From Patiria pectinifera (Eukaryota; Echinodermata; Asteroidea; Valvatida; Asterinidae): a stretch of 64,000 bases of DNA. Shown in pieces: positions 10,863 through 37,500 of the stretch; the first letter of the stretch is position 1; the number at the start of each line of letters is the position of its first letter. The notes beneath the pieces were generated by a model. The model ran no database searches. It saw only the letters and a list, made by a program, of their open reading frames with translations, and was not told where the DNA came from. The stretch spans positions 10,534,932 through 10,598,931 of the forward strand of contig CM057138.1 in NCBI GenBank assembly GCA_029964075.1, written 5' to 3'. A program made the translations under genes and the position numbers.

Positions 10863-13800
10863 TCACGATGACACTGCCTGTGGCATGTGGGGCTTGAGAA
10901 CTTCTGGCAACTGAAACAAAAAATAAACATTTGTTATTTGAAATCATAATTAGAAACAAATCTATCAAAGATCACTGATTGTCCTACCCCTGCTATAGAT
11001 ATTAGGCCAGCAAAGCCAAACCCAGGCAGTTCGGAAGTGGAATGGTTAAGACATTGCACTATAAAAATAGAAGTTTGCAGGTTCAAATCCCATTCAAAAA
11101 TTCACTTGTGGATTTTTTTCTCTCATGCTTTCATGGCTTTTGGCCAGCTCTGAGAAAGCATTGCTTATAAAATTGTGCATGTAAAGGGTAAATACTACTT
11201 TTTTAAAAGTACAAAAGTAAACATTAAAAAAAATTAGATTGATATACAACCTGAATCCCAAACATTGGGGCTACTTTAATTCGGGCATGCAACTTGGAAG
11301 AAACTATAAACGAGGAAACTCCAATCTTTAAAAGACTTTGTGCAGTGTTTTTCAGTTTTGAATGGCATAAGTGTGAAGTGAAAAACGTGGAAATCAGCTG
11401 ATCCGAGGAAAAGTTGCATGCCTGAAAAATGTAAAGCTTGGACAGGAGGGATTACTGTCCAGTGTCCAACCAATTCCATTTGTTCAATCCTGTTAAAATG
11501 GTGAACGATTTGAAACCAGCATTTGACTGGGCACAGCAGATAGACCGCGTTCATGTATGAGATTGGGTTATCGAAAAATGATAAGTGCCTCAAGCGTGCT
11601 CACACATCAATCTATCGGACTACGTGGAAATATGACCACCATCATCTTCGATAACGGCTTTTGGGAGTGGCTGTGTTCTTCAAATTTAACTCAAAGATTG
11701 TTCCTTCTTGTTTAGCTTGTGCTCATACACACACAGATATGTTAGCTTTGAAAATGAAACACAACCGAGTTCACTGGCCATTTTGGGTACCGCACATAAT
11801 TTTTTTTAAATTATTTTTACTCGTACCTGTTGGTGTGCACAGGGTAAAAGAGCTGCTAAAATGGTTGAAGTGTCAAGCGCTGTGCAATGTACCTGTCGGG
11901 GAAACAAATATGAAGGCTGGGTGATATTGGTTCAAAACACAGTCGCTAAAACTAACAGAAACTAACCAAACAATCGTTGCGAGTCCATATTTTGTCCTGT
12001 CAATACAAATCCACTTGTGAATCGTCTTATAGGTAATATTCAGTGTACATGTACCACAAGCCTTCTTGAGATATGGTGGACACAATAGGAGGATGCTATT
12101 TGGAGTGCGGAAACACTTGTAGTTACCCGAATTTACCTCCTCTCAGCGATGTAACCAGGGTTGTCATTCTAGGGGGGCAAGTGGGGGAGCTTGATGCTAC
12201 AGTGGGGGGGGGGATTTCATCTGTATTGAAAGGTACACAGGCATTTTTCACCAGACACCCGGCCTCCGTAAAAACAAAAAGTGTGAGGGGGGGGGCAACT
12301 GGTTGGGCCCGCAAATTTTATATGGAGGTGTGTGCGCCCCTCCACACACCCCCGTAGCTACGCCGCTGCCTCCTCTATGAGCTCTGTGCGCTACCAAAAG
12401 AGGGCGCCCTTTTACCTAGCAACGACGTCCCATGGGTGGTAAATTTCGCTGGTTGACGCACACCGTTCCTTGTGTTTGACGCGCGCACACCAGGGGATTT
12501 GTTCTATGTACACGCAGTGGCCGGGCACCCCCAACTGTACTTCCTTTGCCGGTGAGGGGGTACTTGTGAACGGAGCGGATAAGAGTGTGCTTCTTTTTGT
12601 ATCCACTTATATCTGAAAGATGCCAATGGCAAAAGCCACGGGATTTCCTAAATGAGGTGGGGGGGGGCACTTAGGGGGATCTCATTAATTGTTAGGAGGA
12701 AGGGTCTTTTGCAATGCTTTTTTTCACCCCCCAAAAAGCTAAATTTGGCCCAAGTTCTGAGTTTGGGAGGGGGCAGGGGGCCAAAAAGTGCACAGGCTTC
12801 AAGGGGGGGGGGGCAATTAGTGTGTCAATCACCCGGGACCAACTTCTCTCTGGAACCGTTGAGGGCATATTTGCGCATGGAGTTCATTATTTATACATGG
12901 ATGTGTAAGTGTAGAAACGTGAATGTGCGCATACCGTGTATGGGAAGCTGCGCTTTCTACTCTGAGCTGCCGTCTGCGATGGTAGAGCTGGATATCTGAT
13001 CTTAACCCGCCGGCTGATGTAGTCAGTACAGCTAGACACGCTAGTAACCTGAACACAGAATCAGAAAAACCAAAACTAAATGTTGGCGTAGATATCAAAT
13101 TCAATTTTGGGTTTTTGCCCTTCCCGACTGTAATTGCAAACTCCATATTGAATTTTGGCAAAACTCATGCTAAGGCCAAAAAAAAAGGTCTCCGGTTTCT
13201 GGTATGGAGCTTGCCCAAAAAGTGGTGCGGCGACGCGGCTTTTTTTTTTACCTGATTTTTTTGCTTCAAATGTCGGCTGATGACTGCAAATGGTGCCCGA
13301 CTAAACTTAGTGCAAATATATGGGAGTCCAGAGAGGCCACATAAAGCTTATTCTCGACCATAACCCAATCTAAAAACACGTTAAAATTGTGCAGCAGCAG
13401 GATTCCAGTCAAACCAGTGAGTTTGGCGGTTTTGAGACATCATCTTTCATTGAACAAAAAACTTGTTCATTTTGCCGACGCGTATGGCTACGGCGACGCG
13501 CGAGCATACCAGAAACCGGAGACTTTTTTTTTTGGGCCTAATTGAAATCTCCAAATTGGTGAAGATTTGACAGTTATCAATGAACAGTTTACCATGTTTA
13601 CAACATAAAAATGCAGGAACTGATGGAAATACAGCATCTGCTGTCTTCAATTATCTTCCTCCGCGGTCCGTAATGAGGACTAAAATTAACCCACAGGTCC
13701 CTGTACTGCCCAAAACCAACCCAGCACTGTCTAGTTTCATGGATTCAACCATGTCAACAGAAAACACGCGTACATATAGTGTATTACAATGTAACAATGA

Positions 13801-16800
13801 GTTAAAAACTTCTTTAAGGTAGAGTAGATCATTTGCAGCTATCCAAAAAGTAACTGACAAAATTACAGAGTTGCTGACTCGAGTCATGTGACTTGGACTC
13901 GAGTCGGACTCGAGTCGCTATTTTTGTGACTTGTGACTTGACTTGTAAATACCAGCTTTGACTTGTGACTTGACTTGGACTTGCAAACAATGACTTGTGA
14001 CTTGACTTGGGATTGCAAAAAATGACTTGTTACCAACCCAAGTCAGACGCTACTCGAGCGACCCAATACACTTTAATTCAGCTATTATACTTTTAATTAG
14101 CTTTTTCATTCCAGAAAATAGACCTCAGTGACTGAATCCAGTAAAATGAATAGTTCCCACTAGTTTAAAAAGTGTTCAATAAGACTGTCACAACAAACTA
14201 CAGTTTTCAATGACCAATAGTCTCTTGCTTAATGTATTGGTTGAACAAACTTTGAAAGGAAACTTTCATGAAAAGAAAGCAGGCCTTTTTCAATTGCATG
14301 TAAAATACCGAATAGCCTAACCCATTGGTAGGCGTTTAGTATACATGAAAATTGAACACTAAAGTGCTAGCATACATGTAATCGAGTGAGGAAGTCTTTT
14401 TTCACGGTCATCTCAACATTTATTTCTACAATGTAAAATAAATTTATTGAAGTATACAAAGGGCTAATATCCGACAGATATGTGATAGACTACAAGAATA
14501 GTAATTGCAACATATTGAAAAAGGGGAATTAAGGAGGCATGTTCAAAATAACTCGTAAGTTAACGCCAGGTTAATTCTTTTAGCTTATTACAGCTGGACA
14601 AAATAATGTGCAACTTGACGTGTTCTTGGACAAAGATACTTGTGACTTGACTTGTTTTTAGACCAAATGACTTGTGACTTGACTTGTGACTGGACCAAAT
14701 GACTTGTGACTTGACTTGTGACTGGACCTAATGACTTGCGACTTGACTTGTGACTGGACCTAATGACTTGTGACTTGACTTGGACTTGCAAACAATGACT
14801 TGTGACTTGACTTGGACTTGCAAAAAATGACTTGCTGCCACCTCTGCAAAATTATTGTTTAAAGATAGTAATGGCACTAAACTCCCTGTGAAATTATCCC
14901 TTCTGGCATGCTGTCATTTTAAAGAAAACAATAAAAGAAGGCCATTTCCGAAGATGCGCGTCAAGTGACACATTTTTGGAAATTTCCGTTAGTATATTGG
15001 TTTGTAGTTCGGCGAATCTGTGAGTAGGTGTGTGCAAGTGTTGACACGACGCACACACAGGCCCGGTTGCTATATTATTAGTCGGTTCAGTCCGTGACAT
15101 TGCGTAGCTGAGATTGGCTGAATGAGAACATATCCCGGACACCAATTTCGGGCGCAATTCAAAACATGACTCGGCAACTTTTGAAATGAAATCGAGATCC
15201 TAGAATATTGTTTTCTCAGAGTACACAGTATTCACTGAGCAAGCACTTTTATCAGGTTAATTGTTAATTAAGCACTCTTCTTTTAGATTTTGAGCACTTT
15301 TGTTGATTCAAACACAAAAAAGAACATGAGTGGTCTACTCTATAGAGGACAACAATATTGAAAAAAGACTGATTTTATTGATGACACAATAATTTGATCT
15401 AGAGAATTATAAATTTTGATCCCTTATGAGAGGCACAATACCAATTTACCAATTGTAAAATCATAAATGAACTAAAAGGGAAAGGAAAATGTTTAAAAGA
15501 AAGTACAAACAAATCAGGAATTAAACAATTTCATTGCTAAACTAGTGAGGAATTTCCTTGTTCAATTGAAGTTTTACATTTGCTTCAACTTACCTCTGAG
15601 AATGTGCCAGCGTCTGGTATCCAGACTTCAATGGCACATTTCCTGTACGTGCTGGGAAGTAGGTGGGCACTTGGAACCTCAACAATTCTTCAAAAATTAG
15701 AAAAACATTGTAATGCAAAGATTTAGGAAATTTTTTAGTACAAAAATTGAACATTGCGCGGCAGCAGTAGGCCTAATCTTTTTGCTATTTTCAGTAACGA
15801 TGAATGCACAAGAGGGAATTAACGAGTCGGCCATATTAAATTGAAAGCGAGGTAAAATCTTAGTTTTTGAGACTAATGCACAGAGAAATGAAAGCAATGA
15901 CATAAAGTTAATTACAAATTAATGCCAGTCTGCCCTTATTAATAATTTATAACTTGTAAAGTTGTGATTAAACATACCCTAACGATTTAAGCCACATTAA
16001 CAAAAAATGAAAGTGAGGCTAGAATGCATAAATAGTCTGGCACCATCCCATTCAACAGTTCACAATTTATAAAATGCATTCTGGGAACACGACCAAAATG
16101 GCTTCCTTGTATTAATAAGGTCCATGCATATCCCGCAGAACAAAAACACACAACTCAACATGGCTGCAATGCAAAGCGTCTGAAACGACTCAAGTTCATA
16201 AAAAGCTAGGTAGACCTTTTTTTCAAGTTTTCCCACAACATAGCAACTATCAGCTACTCACAAATTAACCAATACATGTAAACATTTCTAGTGTAAACCA
16301 TATTTTTGATATTTCCACATATCAAATTATCCATTCTATTCCCCATTCCAACCTGTAATGAAGAGGAAGATTTGATAGAAGACCCTTTGCTGTACTCAGA
16401 AACTGAGTGAACAGTGCACTGCTAGCTGCTTCAGTGTTCTCACACACACCGCACAGTTCAACCTGTAAAAAACAAACTATCATTCGATAAAGATCTAAAA
16501 TATCGGATATTACAGTTGCTACAAAAGTCTATCCCATTTTTGTACATTTCTTTAGTAGTTTTCAAATACTTGTCATCGACTAAAACAGCTACAATTAAAT
16601 AACTCAACGATATATTTTTATTTTTTACCTTCTGTGTCTGGAAACTTTTATGAAGCCCCTCAAAGTGAGTTGATTCTATCAAAACAAAAGTTCGAAATAT
16701 ATTAAACCCTTAGCACCGTAGATATATCGTTATTTATACTCGGTTATTTGATATTATTTTTAAATACACACCAATACATACTTTGCACTGTTTTCTTTAA

Positions 16801-19800
16801 AGCTATTCCCGATCTTCAATATGCGAGGCGTTCTGGCAAAATGAGACAGAACTGGGCAGAGGTCGAAATGAGGATTTGGGGGCATTAGGAAAAAGAATAG
16901 AACTCTCCTTACAATACTGTTTAATGCACTTCGTTATTCCATTGACAAATTATGGCTGTTTAAATTACACATTTATCAACATGTAAAAAAAAGTGAAATT
17001 CTGAGATAAAGGCCTTAAAAATTTGAATTTTGTATTCATGAAAATAAAAGATGCCATGATTTTCCTTAAAAAAAACACTTTTATTCCACAATTTTTGTAC
17101 TATTTCTCTAAAATATGTTTAAAAGACTTATCAAAGATTACAAACATCTATAAATCGCGAGAAAAAAATCACATCGATTTGGTTTCGGCATTTTTCTCCA
17201 CTAATTATAAGGCCTGTGCCCACTTCCATTTCATTTTGCCAGAACACCTCACATATTAGATCGCAAGCCGATTTATGAAGCTAATTAGCATGAAAACAAT
17301 TTTCTGAGCAAGCAAAAATATTAAAGGGAATATACAACATTTGCAAACATCGAAAAATAAAACTACCAAGTTTGTAAGAAATACCCGGATGTTGGTAAAT
17401 GAGAGTCTAAAGCATCCTGTAAAATTATAGCACCTGGTGTGAAGTCATTTTCAAGAAAATGGTATTTTTGTATACATTTCCAACGGTGGTCGGCCGACCA
17501 CCGTTGGAAAAACCTAACTATATTCAACTACTGCTCCAAATTTACCTTTTTTTTCAGTCCAAATTTTGTTTGGTATTGGTTACATGTTCATGAACGGGTG
17601 CAGGCCAGCTAGACTGGTTCCCTTGCCTTACAATTTTCTGGCAACTATAAATTGATCCATTTCATCTTTAGTGGAGTCAGGGAACCAGACTACTTGAACA
17701 ATTTTGTTTTTCCTGGTTTTTCCAGCATTTTCGAACATAAAACTTCAAACATGTCAGTGTAACAATATTTGATATATTAAACTAACCCCTCAAATACTCC
17801 GTTTCTGAAAATTAAAGCAAAAGCCAATGATGTACATTCCCTTTAAGGTTACCAGACAAAATGGTCATTCATTATACATAATTGACTGGTCCTCTGCTGC
17901 TAAGCAATAATTTCTGTTAAGCATCCATAAAATTGGTCCCAGTGTGATTACCTAAACAGTTGTTGTAACTTCTTCCAACAGTGAAGCACCTGAAACAGAG
18001 AAGAAAGAAAATACTACGCAATGGGGCAACAATGTTACACTGCTATTGGCATGTGTGAGATAAGGCCGACACAATGGGGTCCGCTCATAAGTCCGACGCC
18101 TCATAGGTCCGACGCCTCATAAGTCCGACAAAATCACATCCCCTAACCAAATAAAGGCCCATAAGTCCGACGCCTCATAGGTCCGACGCCTCATAAGTCC
18201 GACGCCTCATAGGTCCGACGCCTCATAGGTCCGACGCCTCGTAAGTCCGACAAGTTAAACGTCTCGTTTTTCCGTTGTCGGACTTATGAGGCGTCGGACT
18301 TATGAGGCGTCGGACCTATGAGGCGGAATAAATAAATGTTATAAGGCGTCGGACCTATGAGGCGTCGGACCTATGAGGCGTCGGACTTATGATACGGCCC
18401 CGACACAATTATGAGGGTGCTTCACGTATGTGATTTGGGTATTATACAAAAGACTTGACCGGAGCGCCCTCCTATTGTGTCTGCCATACCTCAAATAGGC
18501 TAATTAAAATACAATTGTTAAAACTACATCCCGTCTCATTCAATTATAACATAAAATCACAACATTCAGCTTTGTCTTTTGATAACAACCATAAATAGTG
18601 AGGGAAAAAATCATTAATGCAAAACATTTTTTTAAGTATGTGTGGAGAAAAAACTTAAATCAAATGGTCATTTATCTCAGACAAATTTGTCGCATTCAAA
18701 AATTTGATTTTCCAGCAACACTTTGGAGTGTTATCATGTGTGACCCGTCAATGGCAGAAATTGCCATTTTGCAGCAGAGTGGGGCGAGCCAAACCTTGAA
18801 GGAGGGGTTTAGATGGGTTTTTTTTTTCATATGAACCTCAATCTGCAAGTCCTGGGCCCAATTTCACGGCGCTGCTTAACAGTAATAGCAGAAAAGGTGT
18901 GTTTAGCATAGCAGACAAATTTGCTCACCCTTAGCACATTTTCACGGCATGGACGTGCTAACGGTCAAATTCGGTTGAGCGTGCATGGAGATTTCTATTG
19001 TTACGTCACTAAGTTGAGCAACTTTTTCCCCTGAAGTAAGCGTGCCTTTTGCTGTGTTTATGCTTACGGTCTCCATGAAATAGACGGAGGCTCTGTTAGC
19101 AGAAAATCGTGTGCTTAGCAGCGCCGTGAAATTGGGCCCAGTTTGACCTTTGTCAACTGTGTTTGTTTTATGAAACATCTTTAAAAACCTACTTTCATCC
19201 TGTTTTCTTGGTGGACTGTTCATTCACTGTAATACAACAGAGGATTTTCAAATGACATGTTTTCAACGTTTTCTTAAAATGTAATTGAACTTCAATATTA
19301 CTGGCAGTCTACATATGCTATTGCTGAACTCAGTACCCCTGAATGTTATACACATGTACCATTAGGACGCTTCTGTTCCACAGAATCCAGAAATATAAAT
19401 AAAGTGGCAACAGGTCACATACTTTTCTTGAAAACCCAGAAAAAAATTCTGCAATGCTTACCTGTACGGTAGATCAGCCGCTTCTAGGACAGACATCATG
19501 AAGTAAGCTGAAACCAACCAAAAAGATTAAAAAAACAATGCAGATGCCCCTAAAATGGGAAATTAAAATAACACTGAAATTGTACAAAGACAAATACCAA
19601 GAGGTTTGCCCAAGTACATGAACAATAATGAACACAATTTAAGGCTGGTGTTCACAGTTTACACAAATTTCAGTGCAAAGTGAATTAATCAGGGTAACAA
19701 CGAATGTCACAATGGAACTTTTGTTGACGTTTTGAAATTCGCTTTGCTTTGGTTTCCGCATGACATATGAACCGAAAGCTCAATGGTAAACTTTTCAAGG

Positions 19801-22800
19801 TAGAGTAGTTCAATTTGCAGCTATCCAAAAAGTAACTGACCAAATTATTGTTGAAAACTTACTTGGCTTAAAGATAGTAATGGCACTTAATTATTCCTTC
19901 TGGCACGCTGTCATTTGAAGAAAACAATAAATGAAGGCCAGTTCCAAAGATGCGTCAAGTGACACATTTTTGGAAATTTCCGTTAGTAGTTGGTTTTAAT
20001 TCGGTGAATCCTTGAATGGATGTGCGCAAGAGTTGGTACAAAGCACACGCGCACGCAGTTGCTATTACTCAACTTGTCAACAGTTCAATGTGTGACATCG
20101 GGTAGCTGCAATCGGCAGACTGAGAACAGCTACTGATTTTGATTTATTTGTGACTGGACTTGCGATTTAATTGTGATCCATCACAAATGGCTTTTGCTAA
20201 AACACAGCTAGCTTGTGAAGTGTTTTTCACACAAGCTCTCAGAGACTGATAGAGAGCACTGAATTCACTTACAGTGCTTGTAACATTACTTGGTACTTTA
20301 ATTGGTTGGTTCTTCTCCTAAACACTCTGCAGGGGAGTTAATTAGCTGGAGGCCAGAAACACCAGGGCAAATCCCTTCCTTTTAGCGATAAGTGTTACTG
20401 GGTTCTTATACGTACATTGCATTACACAACGAAGCAATAATGGTTAAGTGCCTTGCTTAAGGGCACAAGTGAACAGACCAGGGCTCGAACCCACATCCTG
20501 CTGCCGACTGAAACACCAGAGCATGAGTCCGGTGCAATGCTCTGATCCGCTAGGCCATGGTCGACACTCCAGTGCCGTTGTTTGACGGTATTAAACGGTG
20601 TGAAAAGATTACGTAATGAATACTTACCAATGAAATTCAATGGACTGACTCCAGCAAGGTACTGTACGTTCTCATGAGTCTCAATGGCATAGGTCTGCAA
20701 GAAGTAAATATTCAATCAAATCATGGGGTTTGATTTGCCAAAAAAAAAAAATTATAGGAGGGGGGGGGGTCTGACTCAATAAAGGTCCATTACTTGTGAG
20801 GGGCCTCGTAGGGGAGTGGTTAGAGCGTGGAGCTGCGGAGTGGAAGGTTGGCGGTTCGAATCCCATTCGGACAAAAACGTGGAAAACTCTCTCTCTGATT
20901 ACCCAACAGTAAAATGGGTTATCTGAAGGGAAAGGAAGATAAGACGGCGAGAGGAGGTGGGCACCGCCACTCGTATGCCATGCCCATATGCCGAGCCCAC
21001 AGTGGACCTCTATAGGTAGCAGACCAGTAAATAAACTTCCATAGACCCCAATGGTAAATGCTCCCACTTCAGAAATTCGGGAAAAATACTCACAACTCTC
21101 CAAGGTGTTCGAGACACACATCAAATTAAAGCTTATTTCATCATCTTTCATTTTCTTTTCAATTTACGGGGGGGTCAACTGATGACTTTTAGTAGAAATT
21201 TCCATCTGAAGATGATCACCCCTGAAAATAGTCCTGAAGCCCATCGCCATTTTGAAAAACGATGCCTACACTCCATTGCAAAATAGAGCGCTTTTAGGGT
21301 CCAAATTACATCCAAATTACACAGAACCGCAAGCTCCCAGTCCTGTGCACGGCTTCCACCCATATTTTTTATAAACCCTCAAGTTCATGGCCCACAGCAT
21401 GCTCAAATACTGAAGATTTTGAGGGCATGCAAATCGTGATTTGGCCGGCGTAGGCAATTTCGGACCGATTTACTGGTCTGCACCCCTAACATCCCACTGC
21501 CCCTACGGCCAATAATGGCTATGGCACCTTTACCTGTTACCTTGACTTGACAAAACTTGAAAGGTCTCAAGACAATTCTTAAAACCAGAGATGATCCAAT
21601 CAGCATGATCAGGGTCAAACATCATCAAATGGGGTTGCCAATTGTGTTTCGTCAAGATGGCTCTTGCCATGGCAACAACATGATTGAAGAAGATGCAAAC
21701 AGTGCATTTCAGGAAAATGAAACAGACTTGACAAGAATAAGCTTACAAAAGAAAATGAGTGTACCTCATTGTTGCTTTCAGGTTCCAATCCCAGAGATTC
21801 CTGCAACAAAAAGGAACATTGTATTGCATCCGGGGAGTAAAAATGCAAGGGGTCTATAGAGCACACCAAAATTGACTTATGGTGGACTTCTTCTGAAGAC
21901 GGTCAGAGCATACTGACCGGAACGTCGAGTTTATACCTCTGGTTCTTTTCAGAACCATTCTCTTAGTTGAGAAATTATTTGCACATGGTGTTTCCGCAAA
22001 CCTTTCATTATTCATTATTCATTATATGATGGACTTGCAATCAACAATTTGTCGATGTATATTCGCAGGGGAGAGTTACGGGTTAAATCGTCAAGCTTTT
22101 CTCGAGTCTCTTGGTTTTGTACACACCGATTTTTGGACTTGAACCTGCTGTACATGGCCTGTCATCATAACAAGTAATGCTCCGTGGCAGGGCCTTGGAG
22201 TGTTGCAAAATATGAAATTACGGTGCGAAGTGAAAATATTGTACGAATGATTATGACTCTAAAGAGTCAGTACTTGTGGTATTTTTAATTCTTGTCTTTA
22301 TTAACAAATATTTGTGTTTTTTTACCAAGATTAATCCCTGCAGCAAGTGGTTTACTTGCAATTAAAGGGAAAACACAACATTTGCAAATATCAAAAAATA
22401 AAACTACCAAATCATTTTGAAATACCTTGCTGGACTGTTAGTGAATGACAGTGTCAAGCATCCTGTAAAATCATGGCACTTGGTATACTGTCATTTTCAA
22501 GAAAAGTGGTATTTTTGTATCAATTCCAACGCTGATCGGCCGACCAGCGTTAGAAAAAAATGGCTTTTTTTCAAATACTGGCCCCAGTTGACCATTGCAC
22601 TTGTTTGCAATCGATTACACACCTATGAACGGGTACAAGCCAGCTAGACTGGTTCCCTGATCTTACAATTCCCCAATATATGTAAACTGCTCCATTTCTT
22701 CTTAAATGGAGTCAGGGAACCAGACTACAGGAAAATGATTTTTATAGCATTTTCGAACCCAAAACCTCAAAAAAGTCAGTGTAAGTATATATGCTATATA

Positions 22801-25800
22801 TTTCCAACCCCCCAATTCCATCCATTTCTGAAAATTACAGCAAGAGCAAATGATGTATAGGCCTATTCCCTTTAACTTGTGACTGACTTATTAATGAGCT
22901 GAGATGGACTTACATGTATGAGTGACTTGACAACAACTACATGCATGTGATGAGCAACTCACCAAGGCAAGAGACTTGTACATGGCTGGGCAGGTGAATG
23001 GAGCAAAGCCTTGCTGTAGGAGTTCTTGTGTAGCCCACTGGGTTAATGCTAGCTCCATCAGTGCAGCGTCGTGCTCTAGGTAGGCATACCCAGCATGGGA
23101 CATGGGGTGACTGCAAGAGAACATCACAAAGAGATCAACTCATTGCGTCAGTCATGTCAGTGCAACAAGGTCGTAACTCGATCTCTAATTCTCACGCGAA
23201 TTAGGGATTTCTCTACTACCTAGGCAGACGTCCATTGACTTTGTGTGAACGTCCGGGTTATTTTAAGCAAGATACGACCTTTTGACATTCTAAAACTCAC
23301 GTTTTGGGTTCGTGCCATTTTAGGAGATACAACCTTGTTGCACTGACGTGACGAACTACTATAAACTAATGTTGTGCACAATATTAACCGAATCCGAACT
23401 TAAACCGATCCGAATCCTCCAAATTCATCCCGACCCGACAAAATTCAAGCAAAAACCGGCCCGAACTTGATCCGAAAAAAAAAAACCCTAAAAATTCCGA
23501 ATATCTGGCTTGGGAATCTGTGTCCGTTTTTTGTGCGTGAACTTACTCGCGCCATGTGAAAATAATCACTGTATCTCAGTTAAGAATCATACGGTACGGT
23601 GACTGCTCTATGTTCCGACACCCCTATGTTCCGACAACCTAGATTGTGTTACTCCCGGTTAGGGTTAGGGTTAGGGTTAGGGTTAGGAATAGGAATATGT
23701 GCAGTCGGAACATAGGGGTGTCGGAACATAGAGGTGTAACCATACGGTACAGTACGGTGAAGACTCATAACGTTACCTACTGTCTACTGGTGGGGCTACA
23801 CATTATAGACTGTGCGTGTAAGACCACAAACCACATGTACTATCATGTGGTGGATTGAGGTTGGTCTTACTTTATTTCTGTTTATTTCAGATTTCGCACA
23901 AGATTTTCTGAAAATTGCAAATGCAAAACCGAAACCAACCCGACCCTGAGCAACAAGTGTATTCTTTTTACATTTATAAATGTTGTACATTTGCATCAAG
24001 AATTGCCTAGATTTCCACGTACTGGCAAATTACCTTCTCGTCATAAAACTCCTTTCCGAAAATTCTGCAGACTTCAATGTCTTCTCTTCTGCAAGAAACA
24101 AAATCAGATAATTGCTCAATTGACAGAAGAAACTTAAAGGTGCCACTAGAAAGCCACAAATTCATGGTTGTTTTAAGTCGCACTTCCCTTGCCATTTTTT
24201 TCGGTTTCACTACGAAAATAGATTTTGTAGTTAAAGGGAATATACAACATTTGCAAACATCGACAAATAAAACTACCAAGCTTTTAATAAATACCTCACT
24301 AGGATGTTGGTAAATGACAGTCTAAAGCATCCTGTAAAATTATGGCACTTGGTGTGAAGTCATTTTCAAGAAAATGGTATTTTTGTATAAATTTCCAACG
24401 GTGGTCGGCCGACCACAAATTTGCAAAAACCTAACTATTTTTCAACTACTGCTCCAAATTTACCATTTTGCCAGTCAAAATTTTGTTTGCTATTGGTTAC
24501 ATGTTCATGAACGAGTGCAGCCCAGCTAGACTGGTTCCCTGACCTAACAATTTTCCGGCATCTATAAATTGATCCATTTCATCTTTAGTGGAGTCAGGGA
24601 ACCAGACTACTTGAACGTTTTTGTTTTTCTTGGCTTTTCCAGCATTTTCGAACACAAAACTTCAACTATGTCAGTGTAACAATATTTGATCTATTATACT
24701 AACCCCTCAAATAGTTCATTTTTAAAAATAACAGCAAAAGCCACTGATGTACATTCCCTTTAAATTTCTATTTTCTAGCAATACAAAAATTATGCAGTTT
24801 TAAATTGTTTTTGACAAGTTGAACAAAGAAACTAACTGGAGCGGGGTTTGAACCCGTGACCTCCGGATTACCGTTCCAGTGCTCTAGCAACTGAGCTATC
24901 CAGCCCTATGTTGGTGGCTCCCCATCTTTGTTCAAGGGCCGCTAGTCAGAAGCCATAAACCTGTATATGCCATACAGCCAGGGACCACACAAAGTCACGA
25001 TACAGACCCGGGAAATAACAAACGGGGACCGTTCAGAGAGGATACGGCATTTTACAAATTCTCAAAATGTACCACAAAGGGGAAATAACTAAGTTTTAAA
25101 GGGAATGTACAACATCTGCTTTTGCTGCAATTTTCAGAAATAAATGGATTTAGAAGATTAGTATGTTACAGCCAATATTGTTAAAAAATTACTTGTTTCA
25201 CATTTTGGGCTTGTAGATGCTGGAAAAACCAAGAAAACCAATCATGTACCTGTAGTCTAGTTCCCTGACCCCACTTAAGATGAAACGGAGCAATTTATAG
25301 AATTTGGGGAATTGTAAGGTCAGAGAATCAGTCTAGCAGGCTTGTAACCGTACACAGGTGTGTTGTCAATTGCAAAGAAAATGCGGAATTACTAATTTTG
25401 AAAAAACTAGGAGCAGTTTGTGAAGAAAAAAAAACAGTTTTCTCCAACGCTGGTCGGCCGACCAGCGTTGGAAAAATACCATTTTTCTTGAAAATGACAG
25501 CACACCAGGAGCCACGATTTTACAGGATGCTTTAGACTGTCATTCCCTAACAATCCAGTAAGGTATTTCATGAGAATTTGATCATTTCATTTTGTGATGT
25601 TAGCAAATGTTGTATCTTCCCTTGAAATGAGATGTGCAAAAAATCCGCCCACGTTTATAAAGTAGTAAAGTCTCCTTGCGAAACAGAAAGTGGATTTTTC
25701 ATTTCTTTCTCGTAACCACTACAGATTAATCCAGAAACTTAAAGCCATTCAGAATCTATTGAATAGAATTCTGTGCACTCTGGGACCAAGTTTACAAGGT

Positions 25801-28800
25801 TTGCCTAATGTTGTTACCTCTATCGGCTCCAAATGTCTCCAGAATCTTTGGTGTGCTTCCATGAGGCTGCGTATAAAAAACAAAGTATACTTCTTAAAAA
25901 GTTAGCAATTTCATTTTGACGTCCAAATTTTGTTCATTTGTTTGACAAGTTTGGTCATTTTGCTAACTAATAAAATATGCATCCTTTTTCTTTCTTTAAA
26001 GGCCTAATTTTGTTTCCATTTAAAAAAAAAATAAGTTACAATGATTAACTTATTTTAAAGTGTAAAGTGCTAGTGATTTTGCCATTGGTTGTTCAAATAA
26101 AATCAAAACAATTTAACTGCTTTGCAGTTTAACACCCTGTTATGTTTTATGTTTGCGCAATTATTTTCTGTTAAGCTCAAATACAAAGATGCTTACCACA
26201 GCAGGATGTAACTTGTTAGGAAGCTTGAAAGCAGCGGGGTAAAACTCGTCCGACAATGAAGCTATGGATGACTGGGGGAGAAAACAAAAACCAACTACAG
26301 GTTTGGAATAAAGTCAAGACAGTCACCTAAGGACAATGGTGCTGAAGGTGTATTTGGAGTTGTTGAAAATCTGTAACTTACCAAATTCTTACTTGACTTT
26401 TTTCCCCTGCTGTGATATTACAGTATAAGTTCAAATGATTTTACTTGTACACATACCCGTACAAAACATGTACTCACAACAAGAATTTTCAACTCAACTT
26501 TTTAAGCAGGATACTGATAAATGGCTGACTTTGATCAAACTTGGTTTCAACTATACAACATTTGCAAACATCAGAAAATAAAACTGCCAAATTACTATGA
26601 CTTGACTGTAAGCAGTGGTAAGTCTCAAGCATCCTGGGAAACCATATGCAACTGGTCCTGGTGTGCTGTCATTTTCAAGAAAAGTTGAAATTTTGGTATC
26701 AAATTCCAACGATGGTCGGCGGATCAATAACAGGTGCAAGCCAGCTAGCTAGTCTGGTTCTCTCCCCAATGTCTATAAATTGCTCCTTTTGTCTGAAGTG
26801 GGATCAAGGAACCACACAACAAGAACATAATATTTTTCTTGGTTTTCCAGCATCCACTACCACAAAACTTTAAACAGGTCAGTGTAGCAATGTTTGCTAT
26901 AAAATACTAACCCCCTAATCTGTCCATTTCTAAAAATGAGCAAAAAGCTAATGTGTTAATCTTTAAGTTAATCTTTAAGTTAGTTAATTAAACAATTACA
27001 TTAAGATGACGTAACTCTTCCCGAAGTGACTTTCCCAACTGCTGCAGTTTGTCTTTTTGCTCCTTTGCGCCACCCTATAAAGAAAGAACTAGATGTCAGA
27101 AATACGTCTTAATAGCAAAGTTAGCACACCATAGGTTGAGCTAAAGCTACAGTAAATTATTCAAAAGGACACAGAATTTAACTCATTTTTAGAATTATTG
27201 CACTTAGCCAATTTCTATCAGATCAAATGTACGTCACAGTCTATATGAAGGGCTTATAAAATTTTACCAGTCAGCAACTTAAGACCAGATGCTCATTTTC
27301 TAACAAGACTGGTACAAAAGTGGGTGTATATTTTTGGTTCCTTTGCATTGATGAGTCAGGGACAAAACAAGAAACCAAGCTTGTGAAATTACAATGATCT
27401 GCCAATATAAGCACAATTGTTAACACATGCATCCCTAGGCCTTTTTGCTAGGATGTAGCCTCAATCCTGCAAAATCCTCCAATTGGCCTCATGGAAAAAT
27501 AGCATCAGGGCAATTCCACACCAAAGTGGACATGACACCAAAAAATTCAAATACATGTGATTTAAACAAATTTGGCATCAAATGAAAGCTAAAAGTCTAT
27601 ATTTTCAAGATTTGAAGTCGGAATTTAATTTTTTATACATTTCGGTACCAAAAACTAGGATTATGTAATAATCCTGTTTTAATCCTAAAAATGTGATTAA
27701 TAGTGATATGAAAGTATTCTACCACTAGACACACAAAAATATGCACTAATGCCATCAGTTTCTGTCATGAGGAAGTATTGGTCTTGAAAAACCGACTAAA
27801 ACTTGTTTTTAACATTTTGCGTAATTTGTTTCGCTTCAGTGACTTCTAATATTTCAGCCTTCGAAAATGTCCTTCCGTTACCAAAAAAATACATATTTTA
27901 AATTTATTTTTAAAACTTGCAGTATGAATGCATTGAAAGTTATTGTGCAAAGCAAGTTTAGGTAGGCCTTCAATATGACATTATAACTGACACTGCTGTA
28001 CTTCTCGTTTTTTAATTACAATTAATTAAATCACGTCCTTCCGTTACCAAATTGGTAACGGAAGGACGGTAACGGAAGGACAAATCGTATTTTTATCAAG
28101 TGTTACGACATTTGCGCTCATGTTTGAATAATGAAAATCACTGCAAATACATGCATGTATAATGAGCATTGAAAGGACATTCATGTGACCCACCTTCACA
28201 AAAGCGGGATAAGCAGGGCAAGGTGTTTATTACAATTTGAAGGCACAGGCATGTACAACATGTACAATGTACATGTACATATATGCCGATGTACCAGTAC
28301 TTGTACATGTATGGAGTTGTTGCAGAAAATCAAATCATAAAGTTGCTGCCATCAGCATTCATGGACAATAGAGAAAGATACGAATTCTGTGAAGCCATTC
28401 CAGAAACAAATTAAGTCAAAAATGAGATGGCAGAAAGTACCGGTACTTTGGGGCACTTTCATTCAATTTACATGTGTAAGACATGTGAGGTGCAGTCTTT
28501 GACAAATTATGCCCAAGTTAACAACTTCAGTTTGGATGTTTATACATTAATTGTTACTACTCTAAATCATTGTTATTTGATTTCAAACATTGATTTTAGA
28601 GTTCAATTAAAAGCAACACCTAACTGAAGCCATCAGTTCTACCGGTAGATGTTTTGACCTTAAATGTACATGTAGGCTGGTGGCCCCCCCCCACCCTTTA
28701 GGTAAACCTCTGAACCTACCGGTATTATTATTAAAAGTTGTTGGTGAACATGTAACCAATATACTCAAGAGTTCAAATATTGTGTATTTAAACTTTTAAG

Positions 28801-31410
28801 GATTGAGGTGATGGGTTTGAAGTCGTATTTCTGTAGTAGTCCTGTGTTCGTGAATTATGTGTTTTGGGTTGTTTTCGTTTTTCTTTTGTTATCATTAATT
28901 AGCAGTCTTCTATCTTTATCTCAATAGTTTCTTGGGTATAATTATTTATGCCAGGTCTGCACATTGTTGATTTCACATTCAGTTACACATTTAAGCAATT
29001 TGTTTCACTTGTATAATTAGTGTAAATTCACATTTTGTTTATGCTATAATTGAGTAAACCTTTTGTCCTTCCGTTACCGTCCTTCCGTTACCAAATTATA
29101 ATCTGCTTAAAACGTTGTAATTATATAACCGAAACACTTAAAGTCAAATGAAAGGCGGTCTAGTATAGATAAAGCTTCAGGGATTCCATTTCCTACCTTA
29201 AAAATATAATTGCCCCATAAAATTCACAGAGTTTTTGCAAAACGCGAGTAAGTTGGAAAACCCTTGTCCGTTTTACCGTCCTTCCGTTACCGACCTCATT
29301 AATATTCATAATTCATAAACGAGAGGCATTCATGCCCCCCAAAAGTGTGGAAAATGAAAGTAGCATTATAGCAATACAATTGTGACATTTGTTTGCTGTA
29401 ACTATGAACAGTGTATGTGATACACACATTTGAAATTTTGTTTAATGAGTGAAAACGTCCTTCCGTTACCGTGGAATTGCCCATATAGCCTCAATCCTGC
29501 AAATTCCTCCATTATTTCTTGAATATGGTCCATGGAGGGGTGACCACTGCCTGAATCCTGCAAAATCCTCCGGCTATGACTGTCAATAGGCTGAGGCAGA
29601 GGCAGTGACATCCTGGAGCAGTGCGGAGGATGTCAAGTATAATCAAGGACAAAAGTTATGCACGGCTGAGCCTAAACAACACAAGGTCCGGCCCAAGACC
29701 TTGACACAGTGCGTACTCCAAAATCAGCAACGCACTTTTGCCATGTAACCTCAATCCTGCTAATTCCTCCAATTTGCAAAAAGGATTTTGGAGGATTCAG
29801 GGCGGTTAGGGTTAACATTATGTTGCAGTGTAATAAATCTTTGGTAAATTAGCAATGTATGATCGTAATTTCCATCAGACTATCAGATCTGATTACCTTT
29901 TTCTTCAACTGTTTGATCTCCTCATTGACATTTGACCTTCGTTCCTCAATGCAACTTTTCTCTTGTTCAAAACTCTGCAGCTGTTCCCAAAGTGAAAGCT
30001 TATTGAATAGAAACAAAAAACAAAAACATTAAAGATAACAATCAGTTCCATTTTCATAAAACAAAAAATACAGTTTTACACCATGGCCTTGGAAAAAATT
30101 CCATACTGGATCACCATTTTTTTTCAATTAATTTTCAAGCGCCAAAAGTTGCATCCTTTATGGTTATTCCCTTCACTTTCCTCTACTCTCACCCTCTCCT
30201 TTCCTTTATTTCTTTTTATTAATCAGTCACTTACTTCATCGAGATTCGAACCTCAGACTCTTGCTTGAAACACGAGACTCTTAACCGCTAGGCCGCGCAC
30301 GATCGCTGTTGCAATAAACAATCTTTGGACGTATTTGAAGTAGCCATTGAAATAAACTAAATATTCATGAGAAAATAAAAATTCATAATGACGTATGGCA
30401 CTATCATTGGCCGGCTCATGCGACGTCATGGTTGTCGATGTCATGCATACAACGTACCCCTGTCTTCCAGCCACTTCAATCACTTTTGATTCAACTTAGT
30501 TCTGCGCGACGTGTGCATCCAAAATGTGCTCTAAAAACACATTTTGCCTATTTTTTTTTGGGGGGGGGGGCATTTACACAGCTTCCTGGATTCCTCTTGG
30601 GTGAAATCACAAGGTCAGGTGAAAATTGATGTGTTTGGCGGCAGATAAAGTGGTGAACCAGTTTGGACATTTTCCCGAAAAGGATATTTTAAAAAATAAA
30701 ATTTATAAACAAAAATTGAGCAGTGCGGCAGCGGTTTCCAGCTCGGATCCCCAGCACAGCAATCGAACGTGTTACCAATCAAGCTACTGAAGCATTCTGG
30801 TTCAAAAAGTAGGCCTAGTTTTTATTATAATATATAAAATGTAATGCAAGAAGTTATATGAATGATGTATTGTAGATTCGCAAAGGTGATTTTCCAATAC
30901 TGTATACAGGTATAAAAGATAGCAGTTGAAAATCGCATTACCATTACGGCTGCCGTAATTATAGCCACTGCGTTCAACTAAGGTACCAATGAATGATGAA
31001 ATCTACAAATAAAAAGAACCTGCATTATACCAAAATCTCACCAGTTTTGAGACATTGACTTTGTGTCCTCTGGCTTCCAAATTCTTTTCCAATTCGCCAC
31101 GGTCTTCAAAAATTCCTTCAAAGTCAATTTCTGGTTTCAAAACAAATGGAGCGTGGTCCGCTTCCGACAAGGGAGTATACAAAGCTGATGAAAAGTGTCT
31201 AGGTTTCAAAAGCTGCACCTTAGAATTGTCCAATGCATGTCTGTTCGAAAAACTTGACAACTTTTGATTCAGGAAGCAACTTGGGGAAAATCTGCCTGTC
31301 GATTCCGCTGAAATTCCGGAGGCGAATTGGCGATGACAGAGACCATTTTGGGCTCCAATTTTCGGCGGGTGATTTCTCAGACAAACGATACACGTGCGCA
31401 GCATTCGCAT
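10863..31410 (-). CDS. Catalytically dead mitochondrial SerRS paralogue (SLIMP-like)
   Basis: Seventeen phase-compatible GT-AG exons, in transcript order: 31410-31042, 29998-29897, 27074-27000, 26271-26197, 25866-25818, 24088-24034, 23110-22963, 21800-21765, 20694-20628, 19507-19462, 17989-17952, 16675-16629, 16462-16353, 15687-15594, 13048-12935, 11892-11827, 10910-10863. The product is 512 aa. A basic N-terminus, MRMLRTCIVCLRNHPPK, suggests mitochondrial import. Residues about 124-200 form the coiled-coil tRNA-binding arm (WEQLQSFEQEK). The class II core follows, with YRKCAIEVWIP and VTSVSSCTDYISRR, and the C-terminus is LPEVLKPHMP. The serine-binding TxE is replaced (LAGVSPLNFIAYF). Motif 2 FRxE is CFTVG, and the motif 3 arginine is absent (VHCTALDTSTILAALL). 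SARS2 would keep all three. In insects SLIMP pairs with mitochondrial SerRS; an orthologue is the best guess, and a divergent SARS2 the alternative. It shares a head-to-head promoter with TADA1. Confidence 0.88.
11030..11180 (+). mobile_element. tRNA-derived SINE fragment
   Basis: An A-box-like GGAATGGTTAAGAC and a B-box-like GGTTCAAATCCCA are about 40 bases apart, followed by an AT-rich tail. It lies in the last intron of the synthetase-like gene. Confidence 0.55.
11284..11422 (-). mobile_element. Small MITE with GGCATGCAACTT ends
   Basis: GGCATGCAACTT at 11284 and AAGTTGCATGCC ending at 11422 are exact inverted ends. The interior shares the GGATCAGCTGATTTCC block with the copy at 7937. Confidence 0.8.
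13171..13541. mobile_element. Harbinger-like MITE with A-run ends
   Basis: TAAGGCCAAAAAAAAAGGTC at the left and GACTTTTTTTTTTGGGCCTAA at the right are inverted, extend through CTCCGGTTTCTGGTATG, and are bounded by TAA. Related elements are at 40007-40375 and 47285-47616. It lies in the synthetase-like gene, just upstream (in transcript order) of exon 13048-12935. Confidence 0.8.
13814..15348 (-). mobile_element. TTAA MITE family B, copy split by a repeat insertion
   Basis: The left end (13814-13868) and the right portion (14852-15348) together match a family B element. The roughly 1 kb between them is a different, GACTTG-rich repeat, so the MITE predates that insertion. Confidence 0.7.
13873..14850. 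repeat. GACTCGAGTC / GACTTGTGACTTG repeat inserted in family B MITE
   Basis: It starts with overlapping GACTCGAGTC palindromes. Both ends carry tandem TGACTTGTGACTTGACTTG arrays in the same orientation, 13920-14045 and 14625-14838. The middle is ordinary AT-rich DNA. Confidence 0.7.
17321..17846 (+). mobile_element. TTAA MITE family A, copy 3
   Basis: Full-length, TTAAAGGGAATATACAACAT to ACATTCCCTTTAA, close to copies 1, 9 and 10. It lies between two synthetase-gene exons. Confidence 0.87.
18076..18402. repeat. Inverted minisatellite of CATAGGTCCGACGCCT units
   Basis: The left half carries about nine units alternating CATAAGTCCGAC and CATAGGTCCGAC. The right half carries about six in reverse complement (GTCGGACCTATGAGGC). 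The halves are separated by a short AT-rich loop near 18255-18275, and outer GGGGTCCG/CGGCCCC flanks close the hairpin. Confidence 0.85.
18853..19140. mobile_element. MITE with GGGCCCAATTTCACGGCGCT ends
   Basis: Terminal inverted repeat TGGGCCCAATTTCACGGCGC (left) with GCGCCGTGAAATTGGGCCCA (right), 288 bp. The second copy is at 46999-47252. The superfamily is not assigned. Confidence 0.85.
19797..20190 (-). mobile_element. TTAA MITE family B, truncated copy
   Basis: Matches the GCAGCTATCCAAAAAGTAAC end and the interior block around GATAGTAATGGCAC of family B. The distal end is missing. Confidence 0.65.
20330..20575 (-). mobile_element. tRNA-derived SINE
   Basis: On the minus strand CCTAGCGGATCAGAGC (A-box-like) and GGGTTCGAGCCCTGG (B box) are followed by a CCCTTAAGCAAGGCACTTAA block, a conserved body motif seen in deuterostome SINEs. 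The head is tRNA-Leu-like with a long variable arm. Confidence 0.7.
20800..21035 (+). mobile_element. tRNA-derived SINE
   Basis: GGAGTGGTTAGAGCGTGGAG and GGCGGTTCGAATCCCATT form the internal Pol III promoter. The body runs to about 21035. It sits between synthetase-gene exons. Confidence 0.7.
21888..22020 (+). repeat. Family C repeat, single copy
   Basis: Same CTGAAGACGGTCAGAGCATA...GAACGTCGAGTTTATACC block as at 10111-10270 and in the inverted pair at 1971-2260. Confidence 0.75.
22362..22875 (+). mobile_element. TTAA MITE family A, copy 4
   Basis: A diverged full-length copy with a short internal deletion, ending GCCTATTCCCTTTAA. It lies just downstream (in transcript order) of exon 23110-22963. 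Confidence 0.83.
23605..23738. repeat. Hairpin of CTATGTTCCGAC units around (TTAGGG)n
   Basis: Two left units (CTATGTTCCGACA) face two right units (GTCGGAACATAG). The loop region carries five perfect TTAGGG-type repeats at about 23660-23688. The layout matches the 18.1 kb hairpin but the words differ. Confidence 0.85.
24231..24763 (+). mobile_element. TTAA MITE family A, copy 5
   Basis: Full length, TTAAAGGGAATATACAACAT to TACATTCCCTTTAA, with both TTAA ends intact. Confidence 0.87.
24833..24905 (-). tRNA. tRNA-Thr(GGT)-like sequence, probably a SINE head or pseudogene
   Basis: On the minus strand GGCTGGATAGCTCAGTTGCT begins a cloverleaf. Acceptor arms GGCTGGA/TCCAGTT pair with G-U wobbles. 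The D arm GCTC/GAGC is intact and the anticodon stem is CTGGA/TCCGG. The loop ACGGTAA gives anticodon GGT. The T arm has one A-C mismatch. The wobbles and the neighbouring MITEs favour a SINE or pseudogene over a working tRNA. Confidence 0.45.
25096..25624 (-). mobile_element. TTAA MITE family A, copy 6
   Basis: Reverse-oriented full-length copy carrying CGGCCGACCAGCGTTGGAAA. The right TTAA has decayed (CCCTTGAAA). It lies only about 190 bases from exon 25866-25818. Confidence 0.85.
26550..26968 (+). mobile_element. TTAA MITE family A, degraded copy 7
   Basis: ACAACATTTGCAAACATCAG and the GGTTCTC...GATCAAGGAACC blocks identify the family. About 110 bp has been lost from the centre and the ends are worn. 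Confidence 0.7.
27420..29815 (+). mobile_element. TTAA MITE family D split by a 2 kb element
   Basis: Family D starts TTAA...CCCTAGGC, carries CCTCAATCCTGCAAAATCCT, and ends GGTTAGGGTTAA. Without the insertion at 27510-29481 it measures about 424 bp, close to the 407 bp intact copy at 49748-50154. Confidence 0.75.
27510..29481. mobile_element. 2 kb element with GGGCAATTCCAC ends and repeated 14-mer
   Basis: Inverted ends GGGCAATTCCAC and GTGGAATTGCCC enclose about 1.97 kb without recognised coding sequence. The 14-mer GTCCTTCCGTTACC or its reverse complement occurs repeatedly: near 27866, three times at 28037-28080, twice at 29066-29090, and near 29278 and 29457. The last copy abuts the right end. 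Insertion into the family D MITE shows it moved as a unit. Confidence 0.75.
30240..30303 (-). mobile_element. tRNA-like SINE head
   Basis: On the minus strand GGCCTAGCGGTTAAGAGTCT and GAGGTTCGAATCTC are A- and B-box-like. The sequence lies between exons 1 and 2 of the synthetase-like gene. Confidence 0.5.
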
Positions 31411-34500: not shown

Positions 34501-37500
34501 AGATGTTTCTTTTGGGAAAGTTGACTGATGCTGTACTAAAGGGTTGTTGGACTGTGCCAGTCTATTCTCTTATGTTGTATGTTTTCAGTACCCTAAGTTT
34601 TGGGACTCTCATACTGATACACAGTATTAAGAGGCCCACATTTTCGGACTAGGGGGAGTACGGTGGGGATATTGTAGTAACAAATCTGAAGATTTTATAA
34701 CATGGTAAAAATAAATGAAACCTTGTACACACTTATGTCCTTTCTATTTTTGTTTCAGTTCATTTACACAATGAGTTTCTGGTGACAGTATTGACAAGAT
34801 GTCAGGTGCTCAGTTCAGAATCATCAGGTGAGTTCAAACAATACAATGGGCTCCGTGCGCCAACAAAAGAGGGCGTGTTTGTACCACTTTTGAGAGCCCC
34901 TTGGACGGAACACCGCGTGTGCTCACTGTACTGGTTCGCGCACGAAGTACGCACGCACGACTTACAATGTGTTTATCCTGAATGTGCACAAAGCTATGCC
35001 ATAACGCCCTTGCGCGTGAGCATCAGGCGTCGTTCGAATACGTTCAAACTTAACTTGCGATGGTCTCCCAGACTTATACCAGTACATCATGTACATGGAT
35101 GCACATGTAATTGCTTAAATTATTTGTGGTCTTGGTGTATCTAGAAGTAAAAATTAGGGAGCTGGACTTACAACCAATACTTTTGCTTGGACCTTTGTTT
35201 GGGTCGTTGCCCTCTGGTCGCTTTGTCCCTGTTACATATCTTGCATTATTTTGATGACATAATAGTCCATTCCAGAAAGGAACTTGGCACTACCGAGAAC
35301 TCGGTAGTTTTGTGAAGGTATATCATGGTTTTTCATTAATTCAGTACTGCAAAAGCCTGTCTTTTATTAACTTTTTTTGTAAGTCTTTGTTGCAAAAGTC
35401 ATTTTAGGTTTCTCACTTTCCCAGCAGAGGCAGCCAAGGTCAAGAGCAGCAATTTGTCGAGCAGCTCAGACAAGGCCTCCAAGAAGAGCAAACCACCAAA
35501 GAAGAAGAAAGTCCTGGTCAGACCCACCTTTGAGGTCAGTCTTGTGGTCAAAAGGTCAACCTCAAGCAATGTGCTTTTGAGTGTGTTTAAAAAAGGGCCA
35601 AATGATGGCGTGGCTGTGGGCACCAATGCCACTGAGCACACAACATCAATATGTGCTTCTAGATAGTTTAGATGATAGAGCACCGGTTTGGTAGTTCAAA
35701 GGTTACAAGTTCAAGTCCTGTTTGATTCAATTTCTTTTGGTCATTTTAAAAATTGAAGTTTGAAAGAAGCATTTACCCAGAACGATCCCCATTCAGTCAA
35801 ACTCCAACACCAGGGTTTGTTGGAATCTATTGGATTGAGGGTACTGCTCTAGTAAACTGATTGTGCTTTACATGGAGTCAGGCATATCACCAATAAACAG
35901 AGTCCAACAGTTTGGGAGTACAGTTAACCATATGGTGTTGGGATTTGCAAGGATGAGGAAGGTTCCAAGTAAATCACCCTAGGGGTTAGGGTTAAAGGGC
36001 TCTTGCAATGTAATTTTGTAAATGCAATCCTTAAAAATGCACCATTTAACCCTACTTTCAATTTTAATTTTGCCATTTTCAAGGGTATTTTGGTGCCAAA
36101 TTTTGTGTTTATGCTACTGCAATTTCCATATTCATAAGCAAAAGTGTGGTGTCCTTTCAGGCAGAAACCTCAATGTTCAGTACAGCTATTTCAGCACCAC
36201 AAGTTGCCAAAAGTTTGGATATTTCTCTGTCGTAAATTGTCTTTTCTTTGGTGATACGTTGTTGTGTCAAGGTACATGGCATTAAGCTGGTGAGCAAACT
36301 TTTCGCACAAATAGCTTCAACGAACAGATGTTTGGGCTCACAATTTGAACAGAAAACCCCTAAACTGAAGCTGAACTGACATCCCAGTAGCAGCGCCACC
36401 AGTTGTCCGGAAAATTAAAGCATGGACAATTATAAATGTGTAAAGACTTGCACGTTTCAATAAGTTAACCAAAAAGGATTGTTAAATAATTTTCATACAT
36501 TTAAGAGGAGTAGAAAGTTGCACAAACTGTGTTCCTAAAAAAAGTGTCATTTCGTAGGGCTTTTAAACGAAGTTGCCCATTAGTATTGTTTTGTCTGGTA
36601 TAGCAGCATAGAACATGGTGTATACATGTGGGTGCGGGCGGGATTACATCCGCCGGTGAAAACATCTATTCGTCCGCTCATCAGGTTTCACCGGTTGCGA
36701 TGAGGTTCCGTTAATTCTCCAGACTCAAGAACCATTGAGTTTTATGTAAATTGATCTGGGAACTAGACGAGGCAATCATGTATAAGAAGCTCCAGAATAT
36801 CCGTGCACACCTATAGTGGACCAGAGATGTTAGCAGTGCCTCTCAATACTACTGTTATAATTGTTTGGTTTCAGAATCGCTTTGTGCCGTCGGATCCCAT
36901 GCTGAAGGCGCCCGCAGTGGCCATGCAGGTTGAAGAGTCGTTGGACTTCTGCGCACGGAGTTTGTTCTTACCAGACGCCGCCATGCTGCACGGGCGTGTC
37001 TTTGTGACGGCGTGGGAGTGGGGCGTCGACAACGTCTCAGGAGCTACTATACCCTTGATAACACACTCAGTGCAGGTAACGCAGATTGATCAGAGATTGA
37101 AATCTCTAGTCCTAGTCAATCACAAGTCAATTACAAGCCCAGGCTTCAAGTATTCCTACTTCTCCTACTTATTTTCTTGAATTCGTACTTTTTCGTCCAA
37201 AAAAATTAAATCTCATTGAATATTTTTCATAACAGTGATGCACACATGTGTCATTACGTACATGTATGTAAATCAAACAATGAAGGGCTTGGGTGCAAGA
37301 GTACTGCAATTGTACTTCCAAGAGCTTACATGTAGTTGAGGATGCAGGGATGTGATTTCTCCGGTTTTATCCGGAAATCCGGTTTTTTGGGCCTCAAAAG
37401 TGCACCAACGTGAATCGTGTGAATCCGTTGAGAAAATAGGGGGGTAGAATGTGCTAATTAATTATTCATAATGAGTTTTGCTTGCCGAAATATCCGAAAT

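Follow-up and report, generated by a model that had tools for sequence, protein, structure and literature searches.

The gene on the minus strand of the window (the whole stretch of 64,000 nucleotides of Patiria pectinifera DNA analysed here) at 31410..10863 very probably encodes SLIMP, the non-catalytic subunit of a heterodimeric mitochondrial seryl-tRNA synthetase (SerRS). Its protein has lost the catalytic residues and kept the tRNA-binding arm, and a separate gene on contig C14 encodes a mitochondrial SerRS with an intact active site and a shortened arm. A paired arrangement of SLIMP and SerRS2-alpha is already known from many invertebrates, echinoderms included.

The gene consists of 17 exons that join into 1539 nt (512 codons) with no internal stop codon, and all 16 introns are bounded by GT-AG, so that the complete in-frame reading of the initial annotation is confirmed. 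When the exon layout was moved to each of 405 alternative offsets along the window, none of the shifted layouts was free of stops; each contained at least 8, with a median of 26. For exons 12 and 14 other acceptors were tried, but these broke the frame, and the upstream acceptors were taken. Exon 1 (31042..31410) carries the start codon, a leader-like stretch (approximately the first 75 residues, judged by eye), and the beginning of the N-terminal domain. The tRNA-binding arm follows, with its first helix and W127 in exon 2 (29897..29998), its second helix and R175 in exon 3 (27000..27074), and its end, LPNKLHP, in exon 4 (26197..26271). After exons 5 (25818..25866) and 6 (24034..24088), the class II core begins in exon 7 (22963..23110) and is followed by exon 8 (21765..21800). 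The position of the lost TxE motif lies in exon 9 (20628..20694), and, beyond exon 10 (19462..19507), those of the lost motif 2 and of the motif 2 loop lie in exons 11 (17952..17989) and 12 (16629..16675), respectively. Exons 13 (16353..16462), 14 (15594..15687), and 15 (12935..13048) lead to the motif 3 region in exon 16 (11827..11892), and exon 17 (10863..10910) contributes a short C-terminus and the stop codon. Two features were seen inside introns. ARAGORN called a tRNA-Thr (anticodon GGT) at 24833-24905 on the minus strand, within intron 5, which may be either a true gene or a repeat derived from a tRNA. Intron 10 contains, by eye, short repeats of CTCATAAGTCCGACGC and its variants in direct and inverted orientation (18090-18400).

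Profile searches and searches of solved sequences place the window protein in the mitochondrial SerRS family. The Pfam family Seryl_tRNA_N was matched with 38.6 bits over nearly the whole profile (2-106 of 108), and tRNA-synt_2b with 29.4 bits, just above the cut-off of 29.3. Among solved structures the best match was mitochondrial SerRS (E of about 1e-49); 29 distinct solved sequences were matched at E <=1; 28 of them carry the name seryl-tRNA synthetase, and the remaining one fuses dynein to a portion of such an enzyme. The SerRS N-terminal arm and class II fold proposed by the initial annotation are thus both found, with mitochondrial SerRS as the best relatives. The score against TIGR00414, the profile of catalytic SerRS, was 150.2 bits and fell below the curated cut-off of 301.65.

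The GTAE of the C14 copy is replaced by GVSP (318-321) in the window protein, so that TxE reads V319-S320-P321, and its AVPR at motif 3 is replaced by DTST, with T485 in the place of the arginine; both substitutions had been correctly noted in the initial annotation. It had also reported the loss of the motif 2 arginine, which stands, but had located the motif at FTVG (343-346). In the alignment these residues are paired with FAVS in the C14 protein, at a place six residues upstream of the true site. Motif 2 (CYRAE in human and CFRAE in the C14 copy) is opposite S348-Y-N-N-C352, as placed by a HMMER alignment to human SerRS2 and by the spacing from a shared DLP, and its arginine is replaced by Asn350. 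The fate of the motif 2 glutamate depends on the alignment: it becomes Cys352 if no gap is allowed, whereas MAFFT, which agrees on the change from Arg to Asn, opens a two-residue gap after this Asn and puts the E of LESTH opposite the glutamate. The C-terminus is also short, with 6 residues beyond the match, which ends at 506 of 512, versus 38 in the human protein (480 of 518), and the C-tail is lost. At the level of sequence, the loss of the catalytic residues from a protein with a full tRNA-binding arm is confirmed, and the active site is predicted to be ruined.

The initial annotation had made its reading, a SLIMP-like catalytically dead paralogue, depend on the presence of a separate mitochondrial SerRS with intact motifs. 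Such a gene is present at C14:10017213-10026928 and, together with the lost motifs, supports that reading. It has 10 exons, the last of which was taken to the first stop, and encodes a protein of 485 residues with intact TAE, CFRAE, and AVPR motifs. The protein matches human mitochondrial SerRS with an E value of 6e-127 and TIGR00414 with 327.6 bits, above the cut-off of 301.65, and its tRNA-synt_2b score is 123.8 bits versus 29.4 for the window protein. Searching the whole genome with the serS profile at E <=10 gave 13 matches: five on C21, five on C14, two in the window gene, and a weak one on C2 (E 4.9). From its exons, the C21 gene looks like a SerRS of the cytosolic type. Searching the assembly for COX1 gave no match at E <=0.001. 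A broader search with the class II core family gave four matches in the genome; the best of them lies at C1:11318595-11318774 (E 2.4e-12), has one TAA inside, and is absent from the matches to the serS profile. The window protein itself, used as the query, found 16 matches: 13 on C10, one in the C21 gene, and two weak ones on C7 and C15. As the C14 gene was not among these matches, the search excludes nothing beyond a close second copy.

The arms of the two proteins differ in the opposite direction to their active sites. The span from the arm tryptophan to LPN is 74 residues in the window protein and 79 in the bovine and human enzymes, versus 49 in the C14 partner, a shortfall of 25 residues relative to the window arm and of 30 relative to the bovine arm. 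For comparison, the span was measured in bacterial enzymes retrieved through their similarity to the C14 protein (80 of 493 loci were kept, and the 75 of these with a reading of 400-470 aa were used). The median was 70 and the range was 47-83, although the anchor letters behind the lowest value, 47 (L079), suggest a misalignment; the second lowest is 56 (L042). The partner arm is shortened rather than absent, with about two thirds of the usual span. Seryl_tRNA_N matched the partner with 19.9 bits over positions 3-49 of 108, below the cut-off of 28.2. R175 of the window arm is opposite human R146 (the numbering of the 518-residue chain is taken to be that of the published work), whereas the partner has A128 opposite the bovine arm arginine in an alignment to 1wle. 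In alignments to the bovine arm, the window arm scored 101 against at most 54 for shuffled sequences and the partner arm 52 against at most 44, with none of 1000 shuffles reaching the observed score in either case. In the three-way alignment by MAFFT the bovine arm was out of place, and the arm results rest on the pairwise alignments, those to solved sequences included, and on the span measurements. Most of the shortened arm is coded by exon 2 of the partner gene (C14:10018248-10018424). When the two arms are aligned pairwise, the gaps sum to 14 residues for the first helix and to 11 for the second, which gives the appearance of a hairpin cut at its tip.

As read from the two proteins, this is a reciprocal decay, in which the arm was kept by the window protein and the active site by the C14 protein. 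The opposite scores suggest that the two functions have been divided between them, as in the SLIMP/SerRS2-alpha heterodimer of Drosophila. The exon structures, moreover, led us to conclude that the two genes are duplicates at the DNA level. All nine introns of the C14 gene match introns of the window gene in the same phase (eight in the same alignment column and one a single column off), a count that may be somewhat favoured by the choice of C14 splice sites, which were picked by hand on GT-AG, frame, and similarity. At most five of nine introns were shared in 200,000 random placements. The window gene has seven further introns.

We propose that the N-terminal hairpin arm of the window protein would grip mitochondrial tRNA-Ser and that SLIMP would thereby present the acceptor end of the tRNA to a single working active site, which would belong to the C14 partner, SerRS2-alpha. 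R175 corresponds to human R146 and to R123 of fly SLIMP (for the last, de Potter et al. 2023, PMC10570016); the roles of both residues are described in that work, which also reports that charging in Drosophila requires the SLIMP arm. We infer the heterodimer, its single charging site, and any role involving LON or the cell cycle from this work on Drosophila (PMC10570016). Likewise, orthology to insect SLIMP is suggested by the architecture of the protein and by the published account (PMC10570016).

Alternative explanations were weighed against this proposal; they overlap, and the probabilities that we attach to them and to the proposal need not add to one. The window gene might have arisen by a duplication of mitochondrial SerRS confined to this lineage, with a loss of catalysis separate from that in insect SLIMP. 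We regard this as improbable, and it overlaps with our proposal, in that such a duplicate could still serve as a subunit of a heterodimer. The nine common introns are in its favour. The trees, built from the window, C14, and C21 proteins, bovine SerRS2, and 15 bacterial enzymes hand-picked from the 75 above (a sixteenth name, L033, is not in that set), separate the window protein, the C14 copy, and bovine SerRS2 from the C21 protein and the bacteria (97/89 under LG+G4 and 88/100 under the mixture model). Within the mitochondrial group, the best LG+G4 tree joins the C14 copy to the bovine enzyme (94/61, not starred), which speaks against such a duplicate, although long-branch attraction could produce the same picture: the window protein has an odd letter make-up and a very long branch, 2.3 under LG+G4 and 10 under the mixture model, where the order inside the group is unsettled. 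The penalty for forcing the window protein together with the C14 protein is only 1.18 log units (p-AU 0.318), and the AU test did not reject its grouping with the bovine enzyme (p-AU 0.261) or with cytosolic SerRS (p-AU 0.138) either. Since all three alternative groupings stand unrejected and the branch is very long, we claim no date of duplication from these trees. Two points nevertheless weigh against the independent duplicate. In the core, identity to the window protein is 32.4% for the C14 copy and 34.0% for the bovine enzyme, whereas these two share 54.4% with each other; and SLIMP was found to be monophyletic with the echinoderms included (PMC10570016).

Decay of an unexpressed gene on its way to becoming a pseudogene is the least credible of the alternatives. 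The loss of all three serylation motifs and the very long branch could be read in this way; however, the 17 in-frame exons with GT-AG joins, the absence of any stop-free layout among the 405 shifted ones, and the full-length arm with its key arginine weigh against it. Somewhat less unlikely than either of these, though still unlikely, is that the window protein acts as a stand-alone regulator and is no subunit of a synthetase, the short-armed partner working as a homodimer. The two thirds of the arm span that the partner retains (49 versus 74-79) and the more canonical structure retained in echinoderms (PMC10570016) are compatible with this idea, but the Seryl_tRNA_N match of the partner covers less than half of the profile and lies below the cut-off, the arm arginine of the bovine enzyme is matched by an alanine, and charging in Drosophila needs the arginine of the SLIMP arm as well as the arm itself (PMC10570016). 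Equally unlikely in our estimate is an unfinished split, in which the half-length arm of SerRS2-alpha would still work on a near-canonical mitochondrial tRNA-Ser(UGA), alpha would form homodimers as well as heterodimers with SLIMP, and the two tRNAs would be divided between these forms. If true, this would be a living intermediate between a homodimer and an obligate heterodimer and would offer a route for the return of vertebrates to the homodimer.

Two other features of the window were observed. A divergent reading on the plus strand (31564 to about 37180) begins 154 bp from the start codon of the SLIMP gene. Its first three exon pieces, joined without a check of splice sites, matched SAGA-Tad1 with 29.5 bits over residues 3-51 (the cut-off is 31), and a fourth piece (open reading frame 36803-37180) brought no gain. 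A search of the genome with SAGA-Tad1 scored no exon of the window and gave four weak matches elsewhere (best E 0.82). The reading is likely a putative TADA1-like gene that shares a promoter with the SLIMP gene. An open frame of 157 codons on the minus strand (50540-51013) resembles by eye the end portion of a LINE reverse transcriptase, and it matched no Pfam family above the cut-off.

The preferred reading, a SLIMP subunit paired with SerRS2-alpha, agrees with published SLIMP in its mitochondrial SerRS fold as judged from sequence, lost catalytic residues, retained arm with the key arginine, short C-terminus, and separate SerRS2-alpha in the genome; the likeness is one of architecture and description rather than of sequence alignment. 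The closest solved relatives by sequence, vertebrate SerRS2 (7u2a, human; 1wle, bovine), have the same domains but act as catalytic homodimers and carry the TxE, CYRAE, and PR motifs as well as a C-tail, all of which are missing from the window protein. SerRS2-alpha of SLIMP-bearing animals, here the C14 gene, is a paralogue of the window gene but forms the catalytic half and has a canonical active site, and its shortened arm recalls the vestigial arm of sea urchin SerRS2-alpha (PMC10570016).

SLIMP has already been reported in echinoderms and hemichordates, that of the starfish Acanthaster planci was discussed, and the duplication was dated to the root of the bilaterians (PMC10570016). The initial annotation had expected a deuterostome copy to bear on the origin of SLIMP; this surprise is unsupported, as both the occurrence and the date were published in 2023, and our view of when SLIMP arose is unchanged. 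Further literature is found in PMC9437257, PMC10817482, and PMC4826098, the last being the source of the SLIMP gene number. The repurposing of this enzyme is already known; the present analysis adds a resolved gene pair to it, and the useful data point remaining is a partner with a half-length arm. Understanding the return of vertebrates to the homodimer likely needs echinoderm SerRS2 to be characterised (PMC10570016), and concrete material for this is provided by the short arm of the partner and by the introns that the two genes have in common.
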